A stretch of DNA of 64,000 bases from contig CAMAUL010000002.1 of the NCBI GenBank assembly GCA_945861405.1, positions 47,506 to 111,505 of the forward strand. Direction: 5' to 3'. Position numbers and translations under genes: made by a program. The notes under the pieces were generated by a model, which ran no database searches, was not told the origin of the DNA, and saw only the letters and a list, made by a program, of their open reading frames with translations. Each line of letters opens with the position of its first letter. The first letter of the stretch is position 1. This stretch comes from Candidatus Methylobacter oryzae. GTDB taxonomy: Bacteria; Pseudomonadota; Gammaproteobacteria; Methylococcales; Methylomonadaceae. Of the stretch, positions 33,015 through 39,300 are shown piece after piece.

Positions 33015-33425
33015 ATGGCTTTTAAACCGCAATCGGAAAGCGATGAAGCAATGAGCGAAATTAACGTCACGCCGCTGGTCGATGTGATGTTGGTACTGGT
33101 GATTATCTTATTAGTAACCGCACCGCTGCTCACCCAATCGGTGCATGTGACCTTGCCAAAAACCGCTACGACCACGGCTGATATTAAGGAACAACCGTTG
33201 CAACTTGGTATCGATGCGCAAGGGGTTATAACGTTGAACAAACGTCCCATGGACGATCTGGCTGCGCTGGAAACGAGCTTGAAGGATGAGCTTTTGCGAA
33301 ATCCCGAAATCGGCCTGCATTTATATGCCGATCAGGACGTTGTTTACGCCAAGGTTGCCGAAGTGATGGCGACAGTGCAACACGCAGGGATTGCCAAGAT
33401 AGCCTTTGTGACTGTTGAGCAGTAA
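33015..33425 (+). CDS. exbD: ExbD/TolR-family protein
   Basis: SEINVTPLVDVMLVLVIILLVTAPLLTQSVHVTLPKT. Confidence 0.95.
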   Translation: MAFKPQSESDEAMSEINVTPLVDVMLVLVIILLVTAPLLTQSVHVTLPKTATTTADIKEQPLQLGIDAQGVITLNKRPMDDLAALETSLKDELLRNPEIGLHLYADQDVVYAKVAEVMATVQHAGIAKIAFVTVEQ

Positions 33426-33451
33426 TTTGTCAGGTCGGATTATACGCAACT

Positions 33452-33636
33452 CGTCATCCCGGCAGGGATTGCCGGGATCCAGAAGCCATGGATGGCAAAT
33501 GGCAAATTGGGCCACAAGGGTTAGCGTAGTTCAACTAACCGTTTTTAGTCGAACTAGACTCTTTGTTGAGTGGTTCTTCTATGCGTACTCTCACATCCCT
33601 GTGCTCTGGATTCCGGCAATCCCTGCCGGAATGACG
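33452..33636. repeat. Pair of inverted palindromic repeats (MITE-like) between exbD and the outer-membrane factor gene
   Basis: TCGTCATCCCGGCAGGGATTGCCGGGATCCAG ... CTGGATTCCGGCAATCCCTGCCGGAATGACG. Confidence 0.75.
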
Positions 33637-35037
33637 GCGAAATGTCATCGGTATGACTTGTGTAGATACATATGCGTTATAACGGCAGCGACCTTACGCA
33701 CCCTAAGCTGCACCGCCGTATTGGTCACCGCAAGCTGCGCGACAGCACCGGAGCGTGATGCGATCAGTATGACGAAGTCGCCCCTTCAGTGGACAACAGA
33801 TCATCCTTCCAACAACCCGATCACGACACAATGGCTAAGTTCTTTTGTCGACCCGGAGCTAAGCGCATTGGTACAGGATGCACTGAACAATAACTATGAT
33901 CTGAAAGCCGCCGCCGCACGGGTCGATTCGGCGCGGGAGCAAGCGCGTATCGATGGCGCTCCGCGTTGGCCGCAGCTGTCTTTTGCACCGGGATACCGGC
34001 GCGCCTCCGTAATGGCTGGCGAGACAGGCGCGTTTGAAGCGCTGTTTACAATGAGCTGGGAAATCGATGTCTGGGGACGTATCAGGGCTACCCAACAAGC
34101 GGCCGGGCAGGAAGCGGAAGCCGTAGCTGCCGATTATTACGGCGCCAGATTGTCCTTGGCGGCGCGCACTGCGCAAAGCTATTTTGAGTTGATCGAGGCC
34201 AATCTTCAGGCCGAGGTCGCCGAACAATCGATCAAGGATCGCCGGACTATAGTCGAACTGGTACGCGGCCGGTTTGCCCGTGGCCTGACTCGCGGCCTGG
34301 ATTTGCGTCTGGTGCTCACCGATCTGGCAAATGCCGAAGCGCAACTTGCCGACGCACGTAATCGGGTGCAAATTGTCACACGTAGGCTGGAAGTTTTACT
34401 GGGCCGCTATCCGGGCAATAATTTAAAAAAGCATGCAGTCTTGCCGACACCGCCGAACGTTTTAGCTGCCGGATTACCCTCGGAACTGCTGGCGCGGCGG
34501 CCCGACCTGATCGCCGCCTTGTCGCGACTGCAAGCCTCGGATTCCCGCGTGGAAAGCGCTAGAAAAACCCTGTTGCCCCGGATTACCCTGACTGCCGTCG
34601 GCGGCACAAGCAGCCCGGCATTAACAGAACTGATCGATCCCAGAGCCGTCGCCTGGAATTTAGCCATGGGGCTGGTACAACCCATTTTTACCGGCGGCCG
34701 CCTGAAAGCCGGAATACGCTTGAATGAGGCGCGCACCGAAGAAGCTTTCAATCAATATCAAAGCATTGCGCTTAACGCCTTTCGCGAAGTGGAACAAACG
34801 CTGGCAGCCGAACAATGGCTTAGGGAACAAGAGCAGGCGCTCAAGGAAGCCGTGGAGCAAACTCAAGCCAGCCGCAAGCTCGCGGTATATTCATATCGTC
34901 AGGGCCTGATCGAAATTCTCACTCTGCTGGACAGCTACCGCAGCACCCTGAATGCCCAAAGCGCACATCTTTCCGTGCAACGGCAGTTGCTCAGTAATCG
35001 GATTGATCTTTATCTGGCCTTGGGGGGCGGGGTTTGA
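33631..35037 (+). CDS. RND efflux outer-membrane lipoprotein (NodT/OprM family)
   Basis: Lipoprotein-like leader ...AVLVTASCATAP; LPSELLARRPDLIAALSRLQASDSRVESARKTLLPRITL typical of NodT. Start uncertain: ATG 33631 lies inside a repeat. Confidence 0.9.
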   Translation: MTAKCHRYDLCRYICVITAATLRTLSCTAVLVTASCATAPERDAISMTKSPLQWTTDHPSNNPITTQWLSSFVDPELSALVQDALNNNYDLKAAAARVDSAREQARIDGAPRWPQLSFAPGYRRASVMAGETGAFEALFTMSWEIDVWGRIRATQQAAGQEAEAVAADYYGARLSLAARTAQSYFELIEANLQAEVAEQSIKDRRTIVELVRGRFARGLTRGLDLRLVLTDLANAEAQLADARNRVQIVTRRLEVLLGRYPGNNLKKHAVLPTPPNVLAAGLPSELLARRPDLIAALSRLQASDSRVESARKTLLPRITLTAVGGTSSPALTELIDPRAVAWNLAMGLVQPIFTGGRLKAGIRLNEARTEEAFNQYQSIALNAFREVEQTLAAEQWLREQEQALKEAVEQTQASRKLAVYSYRQGLIEILTLLDSYRSTLNAQSAHLSVQRQLLSNRIDLYLALGGGV

Positions 35038-36203
35038 TGCTTGAAAAAAACCGATTGAAAATTTTCTTGCCCGTTGCACTGTTGCTGACCGGCATTGCCT
35101 GCGCCTGGGTGGTTATTGCCACGCGTCCGCAAATGGTGCAGCAAACGCCGAACGCCGAAGTGCCGCTGGTTACCGTGATCCAGGTCGAGCCGCAAACGCT
35201 CCGGCTGAATGTTCATTCTCAAGGCATCGTCACGCCGCGTAATGAAATCGATTTGATACCGGAAGTCTCAGGCAAAATCACCCAGCTTCATCCTGATTTT
35301 GTCGTAGGTGGTTTTTTTGCACGCAACGACTTGTTGGTGTCCATCGATCCGCGCGATTATGACTACGCAATCGCCCAAGCCCAGGCACAAATCGCCGAAG
35401 CCAAACGTCAACTGGCGATGGAAGAAGCCCAGGCCGGCCAGGCGCACAATGAATGGCAAGCCTTGGGCGAAGGCACCGCCACGTCGCTGGCGATGCGTGA
35501 GCCGCAACTGGCTGAAGCCCGCGCCAAACTCAAAGCCGCCGAAGCTAGTCTGCTGCAAGCTCAAATCAAACGCAGTCGCTGCGAATTGCGTGCGCCTTTT
35601 ACCGGACGATTTCAAACCAAGCTTGTGGGCTTGGGTCAAACCATCCAATCCGGCGAAAAGCTCGCACATATCTATTCCACCGATCTTGCCGAAATCAGAT
35701 TGCCGTTACCGACCGACCAGCTGGCCTATCTCGATTTGCCGCTGGGAGCGGGAGGAGCGCAGTGTGGTGCGGCATCTCTACCCTGTCCCAAAGTCACACT
35801 CACTGCCGACTTCGCAGGAGCCTTGCAAACCTGGGAAGGCCGCATCGTGCGTAGCGAAGGAAAACTGGATGACACCACCGGCGTCCTTTATGCCGTCGCC
35901 GAAGTAATCAACCCCTACACGCAAAAAGACGGTCATCCGCCACTGCTGGCCGGACTGTTTGTGCAGGCACTGGTACAGGGCAAAGAGCTGCAAAACTTGT
36001 TTGTGCTACCCCAAAATGCAATCAATGCCTCCCAGCAGGCGTTGGTGGTCGATGCCGACCTGCAGCTGCGTATTCGCCATCTTGAAGTGTTGCGCAACGA
36101 GCCGGATCGTATTCTGGTGAAAGGTGGTCTGAGCGCTGGAGACCGGATTGTGACTTCGGGTATTCAAGTGCCGGTGGAAGGCATGAAAGTCAGGGTTGAA
36201 TAG
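35037..36203 (+). CDS. RND efflux periplasmic adaptor (MFP/HlyD family)
   Basis: NEIDLIPEVSGKITQLHPDFVVGGFFARNDLLVSIDPRDYDYAIAQAQAQIAEAKRQL; TGATG overlap with the previous gene. Confidence 0.93.
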   Translation: MLEKNRLKIFLPVALLLTGIACAWVVIATRPQMVQQTPNAEVPLVTVIQVEPQTLRLNVHSQGIVTPRNEIDLIPEVSGKITQLHPDFVVGGFFARNDLLVSIDPRDYDYAIAQAQAQIAEAKRQLAMEEAQAGQAHNEWQALGEGTATSLAMREPQLAEARAKLKAAEASLLQAQIKRSRCELRAPFTGRFQTKLVGLGQTIQSGEKLAHIYSTDLAEIRLPLPTDQLAYLDLPLGAGGAQCGAASLPCPKVTLTADFAGALQTWEGRIVRSEGKLDDTTGVLYAVAEVINPYTQKDGHPPLLAGLFVQALVQGKELQNLFVLPQNAINASQQALVVDADLQLRIRHLEVLRNEPDRILVKGGLSAGDRIVTSGIQVPVEGMKVRVE

Positions 36204-36386: not shown

Positions 36387-39300
36387 ATGAATTCATCACA
36401 ATATCGCCCCACCGGCCTGCTGGCTTGGTTTGCCTCCAATCCGGTGGCTGCCAATCTGTTGATGATACTGATCATTATCGGGGGCATCGTCGGTTTTAAG
36501 GTGATGGACAAAGAGGTGTTTCCACGCTTTAACCCGCAGCAGATCGATGTTACGGCGGCCTATCCGGGAGCCGGGCCCCTGGAAATTGAGGAATCGGTGT
36601 GCGTACGCATCGAAGAGGCAATCAGCGATATGCCGGGGGTCAAGCGGCTGAACAGCGCAATTCAGGAAGGCATATGCACCGTCAAGGTGTCGGTATTACC
36701 AGATTACGATCAGGATCAGATTATCAATTCCCTGCGCGGACGCATTCAAAACATTCCCCGGCTGCCGAAAAACCTGGAAAAAATAGACGTACAACCGGCC
36801 ATTCGCGATGTCGATGACGGCGTTATCTGGGTGGCCTTGCACGGCCCCACCGATCCGCTTACTTTGCAACATTTCGGCGAACACATTCGCACAGACCTTG
36901 AACAGATTCCCGGCGTGCTTCGGGTGCGCAATTACGGTGAAATTCCTTATGAAATTGTTATCGAGGTTGCTTCCGCCAAACTGAATCAATATCACTTATC
37001 CTTGCACGATGTCACCGAAGCCGTGCGTCGGGCCTCGCTGGATCAGTCGGGTGGACTGGTAAAAACACCTTCGGGCGAATTGCAGCTTAGAGTCAAGGGC
37101 AAAGCTCAGGACGCGCTCAGTATCGGCGATCTGGTGCTGCGTACCCATGCCGATGGTACGCGACTGCTCCTCGGTGAAGTCGCCGTGATCCGCGATGGCC
37201 TGGAAGAGCGGCTGTCGGAATGGCATCATAACGGCGAGACCGCCCAAGGCTGGGAAATCCATACCAAATACAGCTCTGTCGAAGTGGCGCGTCGCGTGAA
37301 AGACTATGTCGCTAAAATGCAGCCGCAACTGCCGGAAGGCTTGGCGATGACCACCTGGTGGGATGATTCGCAGGCTTACGACGAACGGGTGCAGACGCTG
37401 GTGGAAGACGGCCTCGGCGGCTTTATGCTGGTGTGTCTGGTGTTGACCCTGTTTTTGCGGTTGCGCGTGGCAGTCTGGGCCGGTGTGGGCATATTCACCT
37501 CCGTGCTCGGCGCGTTGTGGCTGATGCCGGTGCTGGATGTCTCCCTCAACATGCTGTCGTTGTTCGGCTTTCTTTTGGCGATGGGCATTTTGGTGGATGA
37601 CGCGATTATTATCGGCGAAAGCGTGTATTCGCATCAGCAAGACGGGCAAGATGCCGAGGCCAGTCTTGCCGGGGCGATTAACGGCGTACAGGCGGTGGCC
37701 TTGCCGGTGATTTTATCGGTGCTGGTGGCTCTGGTGGCGTTCTTGCCGGGGTTGTTCCTGCCCGGATGGGCGGGGCAGATGATGAAGCCGATCTGTCTGG
37801 TGATGATTTTGACCCTGGTGTTTTCGCTGATTGAGGCGCTGCTGATTCTGCCCTCACATTTGGCCGCGCCTTATAAGCGTAGGGTGGGCAGCGCTTTTCT
37901 GCCCACCTTGCACTCAAAAGATGCGTGGGCAGAAAAGCGCTGCCCACCCTACACATTGGAACGCTTACGGACAACGCTTAACCGTGGCCTGGAGCGATTT
38001 GTCGACCGCTACTACCGCCCTTTTTTGCAACGCGCCCTGGACTGGCGTTACCTGACCGTCACCGGTTTTATCGTATTGCTACTGCTGTGCGGCGCATGGC
38101 TGGACAGCGGGCGACTGCGCATGTCCCTGCAAGCGGATGTCATCAAGGACAGTTTCTGGGTTTCCCTTGCCTCGCCGCAGGATGCGCCTTACAGCGAAGT
38201 GCGCGACCGGGCGCAGCAGGTGGAACAGGCGTTTTTTGCGCTACGCAACGAACTGGACGGCGTAGGCAACGCAAACCACGATCCCAATAAACCCAGTATC
38301 GTGGTCGGACTGGAAACCATGATCTGGGAGCATGGCGCCGGTTTCTGGACCGAGTTTTCAGCGGAAGGGCGGCAACGGATCGTCGTCGAAGATTTTATCA
38401 ATGAGTGGCGCAAACGAGTCGGCAACTTGGGCCGCACCAAGATCGATTTTCTGTACAAGGAAGGCGATGTGCCTTACGACATCGAGTTCGATCTTGGCGC
38501 CGCCGACTCCGAACTGCTGCCCAAAGCTGCGGCTGAACTGGGGCGCACGCTGGAAGGCTATCCGGGCGTTTACGATGTGGTCGATTCCAGCGAACCGGGT
38601 AAACCGGAAATCCGCCTGACCTTAAAGCCGGAAGCCGAACGCTTAGGGCTGCGTCTTGAAGACTTGTCTGAGCAAGTCCGCCACGGCTACTACGGCGATG
38701 AAGTGCAGCGCTTGCAGCGCGGGCGCAATGAAGTCAAAGTGATGGTGCGTTATCCGCGCGAGGAACGCCAGTCGCTGGACAGCTTGGCTGCATTGCCGGT
38801 GCAACTGCCGGACGGCCAACACGTGCCGCTGGGCACACTGGCTAAAGTGACCTTAACCCCCGGCGTCGCCAAACTGATCCGGCAGGATCGTCGCCGGGTG
38901 CTGAAAGTACAGGCGCGGGTTGATCCGCAAAAAGCCGATGTCAACGCCATTTATGCCGGGCTGGAAACCGGGGAATTGAAAAACCTGCGCTTAAATTATC
39001 CCGGCTTGAGCATCACCATCGGTCAAGAACGCCAGGAACAGCAGGCCATGACTGAAGCCTTGGGGCAATACACCCTGATCTCGCTGATGGTAATCTACGT
39101 ACTGATTGCGGTGCCGTTCCGCTCCTATCTAAAACCGCTGATTTTCCTGCTGGCGGCGCCAGTCGCCTGGTGCGGGGCGGTCATCGCGCACGGGCTGGCA
39201 GGTTTGCCGTTGTCGATGGAATCGTTGGTCGGGATGATCGCAGCCAGCGGCGTGGTCGTCAACGACAGTCTGGTGCTGCTGGATTATATGAAAGAACACG

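Follow-up and report, generated by a model that had tools for sequence, protein, structure and literature searches.

A GTAG REP doublet read in frame within an RND efflux permease gene of Candidatus Methylobacter oryzae

The window, a stretch of 64,000 nucleotides from the 154-contig draft assembly of the methane-oxidizing bacterium Candidatus Methylobacter oryzae (GCA_945861405.1, here G000), contains an RND efflux permease gene. Its product has the full-length match expected of an RND permease, with the ACR_tran domain (PF00873) spanning residues 14-1047, and its AlphaFold2 model, which is of only moderate confidence (mean pLDDT 67), is matched by OqxB and AcrB in Foldseek. Beside the permease gene are genes of the same efflux type for an adaptor (35034-36203) and an outer-membrane factor (33415-35037). 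In the outer-membrane factor gene, the open frame begins with ~100 aa (window 33415-33720) upstream of the family match, and these contain LWIPAIPAGMTAK, which resembles a translated dispersed repeat; the true start of this gene is probably downstream.

Within the permease gene lies an inverted repeat (37879-37906 and 37925-37952) with 28-bp arms that are 100% complementary (Table 1). Among the other inverted repeats of the 64-kb window with spacers of at most 40 nt, perfect arms do not exceed 14 bp, and the expectation of 28-bp perfect arms by chance is negligible. Each arm consists of GTAG followed by a hairpin, GTGGGCAG-n7-CTGCCCAC. A single strand of 80 nt folds into one long hairpin; the folding of the element is -41 kcal/mol (z -11.4) as single-stranded DNA and -65.4 (z -12.3) as RNA. 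The original prediction had described a nested perfect palindrome, with an 18-nt spacer and a hairpin within each 28-bp arm, that is read in frame as RVGSAFLPTLHSKDAWAEKRCPPY, and this is what was found, the peptide occupying codons 498-522. Among the three frames of the sense strand of the element, one meets TAG at once and the one that is used is open; the gene is in frame on both sides, with ~89% nucleotide identity to orthologues, and VGSAFLPTLHSK is an example of a tryptic peptide predicted from the insert. Two copies of GTAG with a palindrome, in inverted orientation, define a REPIN or BIME. By this definition the 74-bp element is a REPIN (a BIME-like doublet of REPs), which is a miniature transposable element of the non-autonomous type.

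Table 1. Coordinates of the permease gene and of the parts of the palindromic element, as positions in the window.
Feature	Position	Strand	Evidence
RND efflux permease gene (ACR_tran), host of the element, 1050 aa	36387..39539	+	ORF; Pfam PF00873, E 1.5e-145
Variable linker after TM6 and before the following helix, target of the insertion, modelled as disordered	37871..37955	+	alignments; AlphaFold2
REPIN, two inverted GTAG REPs, 74 bp, in frame, codons 498-522	37879..37952	.	inverted repeat; REP identity to other copies
Left REP, GTAG and hairpin GGTGGGCAG-n7-CTGCCCACC	37879..37907	+	29/30 identity to REPs C8:43444 and C17:3542 of the same genome
18-nt spacer separating the REP arms	37907..37924	.	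arm positions
Right REP, inverted, GTAG and hairpin GTGGGCAG-n7-CTGCCCAC	37925..37952	-	29/30 identity to two RAYT-side REPs, C1:32485 and C1:32974

A search of the same genome for GTGGGCA-n3..20-TGCCCAC found 17 hairpins, spread over many contigs, and 0 for the reversed pattern used as a control. The sequence GTAGGGTGGGCA has 19 exact copies, four of them around a gene for a Y1 transposase (C1:31701-32252); these copy numbers are counts of exact-stem patterns in a draft genome of 154 contigs, and are lower bounds. The product of the transposase gene is a REP-associated tyrosine transposase (RAYT) by its match to NCBIfam NF047646 (REP_Tyr_transpos), which scores 195 bits where the cut-off is 80, and there are REPs on both sides of the gene. 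In a sample of 30 RAYT loci, comprising this one and those of relatives, the same REP was found within ~1.5 kb of 7/7 loci with at least 55% identity (55-80%, plus the own locus) and of 2/23 more distant RAYTs. The 74-bp element is assigned to the REP family of the RAYT on contig C1 because of this association and because its arms are 29/30 identical to RAYT-side REPs and other copies. The earlier placement among REP/MITE-type elements was right in outline, the element being a dispersed GTAG REP doublet with a cognate RAYT.

The search of the genome for further copies, which the original prediction had proposed, yielded two doublets in genes, that of the permease and one in kdpA; the other REP doublets of this genome are outside long conserved ORFs. 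The same is true of 29/30 REPIN doublets of relatives, the sole exception being a REPIN in the permease linker. Long open frames beside the REPs on C127 and C143 were rejected as intragenic cases because these REPs are upstream of matches to DUF2333 and PepSY and are probably 5' extragenic, and the long open frames across REPINs of relatives L180, L184, L191, L195 and L197 are N-terminal overhangs or short, and probably spurious. Two REP copies are at contig ends (C127, C140). An intergenic site just past a gene end (L056:1913-1989, which is G000:C3:16912-16988; L260-L273) is a hotspot of REP turnover, in which relatives have differing hairpins (GTAGGGTGGGCA type or GTAGGAGCGG type) or a longer palindromic element. 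It was rejected as a clean empty site, several relatives holding another GTAG-type hairpin or element there, and C8:43444 was rejected as an empty-site test, being confounded by a second repeat element. A different repeat of ~150 bp, centred on CCAAAGCCAGCTTTGG, is present at G000:C8:43557-43703 (L058 ~2058-2204) and has dozens of copies in G000 and in relatives such as G007.

The insert is in the permease linker that follows TM6 (helix 460-492) and precedes another long helix (522-552); we take this linker to be cytoplasmic from the known topology of RND pumps. This linker varies in length among aligned permease orthologues, and residues 495-522 have pLDDT <50 and are the lowest blocks (31-34) of the AlphaFold2 model, in agreement with the expectation that the insert follows a TM helix and is probably in a loop. 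The insert is absent from all aligned permease orthologues of the same genus (Methylobacter) and from a paralogue with 91% identity in the same genome (G000:C47:11170-14229, L055), and in a tree built without the linker the window permease falls within the insert-free Methylobacter group. The linker of orthologues is ~29 nt between conserved GCGCC and TGGAACG; in the window gene it is 8 + 74 + 4 nt. The alignment of homologues by which the boundaries were to be defined confirmed the absence of the insert from same-genus orthologues, but the net gain is 57 nt (19 codons), with ~17 nt of native linker replaced, rather than a clean 74 nt. No target duplication is visible at the permease insertion site. 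The ~17 nt missing from the target (~18 nt in kdpA) are not predicted by simple insertion, and the linker could have differed before the insertion. Close-relative orthologues do not all carry the same peptide without the palindrome. Two outcomes had been named as contrary to the original prediction, the same peptide in distant genera and an element unique to this site, and neither was found: the element is dispersed, and in another genus this linker contains a peptide derived from a different REPIN.

The latter is encoded by the orthologues L081, L088 and L108, which form a separate, well-supported clade of a related genus. Their REPIN is ~8 nt off that of the window on each side, and differs from it in REP subtype, spacer and frame; the simplest reading of these sequences is an independent insertion. 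The frame of the insert is open in this clade, the left REP retains single mismatches in its stem, and non-synonymous divergence is 0.09-0.14 in the insert versus 0.02-0.04 in the flanks, which suggests a frame that has been kept and a peptide sequence that is weakly constrained. The claim that the element became a protein segment stands at the level of the ORF; a benefit at the protein level is hypothetical. In L083, a Methylococcales bacterium of the sister clade, the same linker has a non-palindromic insert of ~22 aa with a peptide that resembles the REPIN-derived one of L081 (VNWLCTFFHRFYKKN vs VGWAGFFAHRFWYKN); none of 2000 shuffles was as good, the match being post hoc and weak at the DNA level. 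The insert of L083 is perhaps a fully decayed REPIN.

The second in-frame REPIN of the genome (G000:C64:19472-19549; L061:1973-2050, L201) is within the potassium-pump gene kdpA (PF03814, 2.8e-243), directly before the TQTLALGPAASQ segment. Three relatives, G012, G021 and G006, share it, and the others lack it, among them G009, the sister of G000; the four insert-bearing sequences do not form one clade in the kdpA tree, which has poor support. The net gain at this site is 60 nt, with ~18 nt of linker missing. The kdpA REPIN is older than the permease copy. In the left hairpin of G021 and G006, two pairs have changed on both sides (GGTGGGCA/TGCCCACC to GGCGGGCA/TGCCCGCC to GGCGGACA/TGTCCGCC). 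These changes, T-A to C-G and G-C to A-T, are non-synonymous in 4/4 cases, and 100% of stem cells are paired in the four sequences, among which the covariation score was reached by 19/500 shuffles. If real, the paired changes would reflect selection on the hairpin or template-switch correction rather than selection on the peptide, and they are suggestive only.

The account that fits the observed anatomy, dispersal, RAYT association, empty orthologues and paralogue, kept frame and low-confidence loop, and in which we have high confidence, is that a REPIN, very probably mobilized by a RAYT, was inserted into the RND permease and tolerated in a disordered cytoplasmic linker. The RAYT, of the Y1/HUH type and encoded elsewhere in this Methylobacter genome, is very probably the mobilizing enzyme, as judged from its association with the REPs. 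Insertion into the permease coding sequence would have replaced ~17 nt of the variable segment that follows TM6, with preservation of the frame by a net gain of 57 nt or 19 codons. Tolerance is the simplest account of the insert because the site is a low-confidence, length-variable cytoplasmic linker; a disordered cytoplasmic loop would make the insert nearly neutral, and this may be why it survived. The permease presumably still works with the insert. The dN/dS of the gene outside the insert versus relatives is ~0.08-0.12, the same constraint as in relatives, a value for which the insert is too young to make it a test of function after insertion. Persistence of the insert does not prove that the permease protein works, because the paralogous permease means that loss of function would also be tolerated.

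That the draft assembly was joined chimerically at a repeat is extremely improbable: two other REP copies do lie at contig ends, but this element is just 74 bp long, and the reading frame is intact to its left and right, where the gene has ~89% nucleotide identity to orthologues. A single ancestral insertion in the linker, inherited by the window gene and by L081, L088 and L108 and then repeatedly lost or transferred by recombination, would explain why the same linker is occupied in both, and it accords with the possibly decayed insert of L083 and with the patchy distribution of the kdpA REPIN, which is in G000 and not in its sister G009. However, the ~8 nt offset of the insertion point on each side and the differences in frame, REP subtype and spacer argue against common descent, and many losses would be required to empty all of the same-genus orthologues and the paralogue, so that such an ancestral insertion is improbable. 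Selection of the REPIN peptide as a useful segment, for example as a longer linker between TM6 and the next helix that tunes the pump, is quite improbable. It could account for the occupation of one linker in two lineages, for the frame of L081, L088 and L108 that stayed open while the insert diverged by 12-13%, and for the peptide of L083, as if the palindrome had decayed and the segment had stayed. Nevertheless, most orthologues have no insert at all, the window copy is of too recent origin for a test, the match of L083 is post hoc and weak in the DNA, and the non-synonymous divergence between the inserts of L081 and L088 (7/65.8 = 0.11) is ~5 times that of the upstream flank (0.02) with similar synonymous divergence.

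A further explanation concerns maintenance after insertion, and is compatible with insertion of a REPIN: the hairpin and not the peptide may have been kept, either by selection on RNA or DNA structure or by template-switch (quasi-palindrome) correction that matches the arms. The perfect 28-bp arms of the window copy, the very stable folding of the element, and the two stem pairs of kdpA that changed non-synonymously on both sides with all stem pairs retained are consistent with it, but the kdpA evidence comprises just four sequences with a score that 19/500 shuffles reached, the left REP of L081, L088 and L108 has kept single mismatches in the stem, and the window copy may simply be young; maintenance of the hairpin is possible, though doubtful. 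Equally tentative is a broader proposal that intragenic REPINs of Methylobacter and its relatives persist as hairpins, the palindrome correcting itself within a coding gene as the paired non-synonymous changes of kdpA might indicate, and that REPINs land repeatedly in one RND linker and later decay there into ordinary protein linkers. Insertion of a REPIN into a tolerant linker is the preferred explanation of the permease copy, which shows cleanly, and at a young stage, how a mobile palindrome becomes coding sequence. Together with those of the other clade and of kdpA, it provides a time series with which to ask whether such inserts are simply tolerated, are retained for their hairpin, or come to serve as protein.

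ERIC and other MITEs, to our knowledge, have no GTAG REP doublet or RAYT, and their ends are different. Their intragenic copies (PMC10969869) nonetheless resemble the 74-bp element in being small and in having joined the ORF of a host gene in frame. The palindromic elements of Rickettsia (RPEs), which are ~150 bp long, comprise ten families and encode a conserved peptide (PMC10969869), are likewise palindromes read in frame within protein genes, but the kinship with them that had been suggested was rejected: the element of Methylobacter, an unrelated bacterium, is a 74-bp GTAG REP doublet of a RAYT system, its REP-derived peptides differ between copies, and the likeness is that of an in-frame palindrome alone. 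REPINs or BIMEs of GTAG-REPs with RAYT (TnpAREP) have been described (Bertels and Rainey 2011, PMC3116915; RAYT biochemistry, PMC8266576), and the 74-bp element is like those of PMC3116915 in its GTAG palindromes, inverted doublet with a short spacer, dispersal in the genome, and cognate RAYT flanked by the same REPs. Unlike those REPINs, which are mostly extragenic (a typical but not absolute trait), it has a low copy number (17 perfect-stem hairpins) and lies within a coding sequence; its membership stands despite this location because intragenic REPs are a published variant (PMC3733652). GTAG REP dimers wholly within ORFs, encoding 20-30 aa, were reported by Di Nocera et al. 2013 (PMC3733652), with REPs at approximately the same recB site in two Xanthomonas species, and the present case resembles them both in being a REP dimer inside an ORF and in the use of nearly one site by orthologues of related organisms, which some of those published cases show. 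Many of the host genes in that study are for replication and repair, whereas the hosts here are two membrane transporters; the string "Methylo" does not occur in its text, and a literature search for Methylobacter REPs returned nothing relevant. In-gene GTAG REPs had thus been described, and the REPIN of the Methylobacter permease adds another case. Its value lies in how unusually fully it can be compared locally, with orthologues and a paralogue that are empty, a linker that holds a different REPIN in another clade, and a decaying copy of greater age in kdpA.
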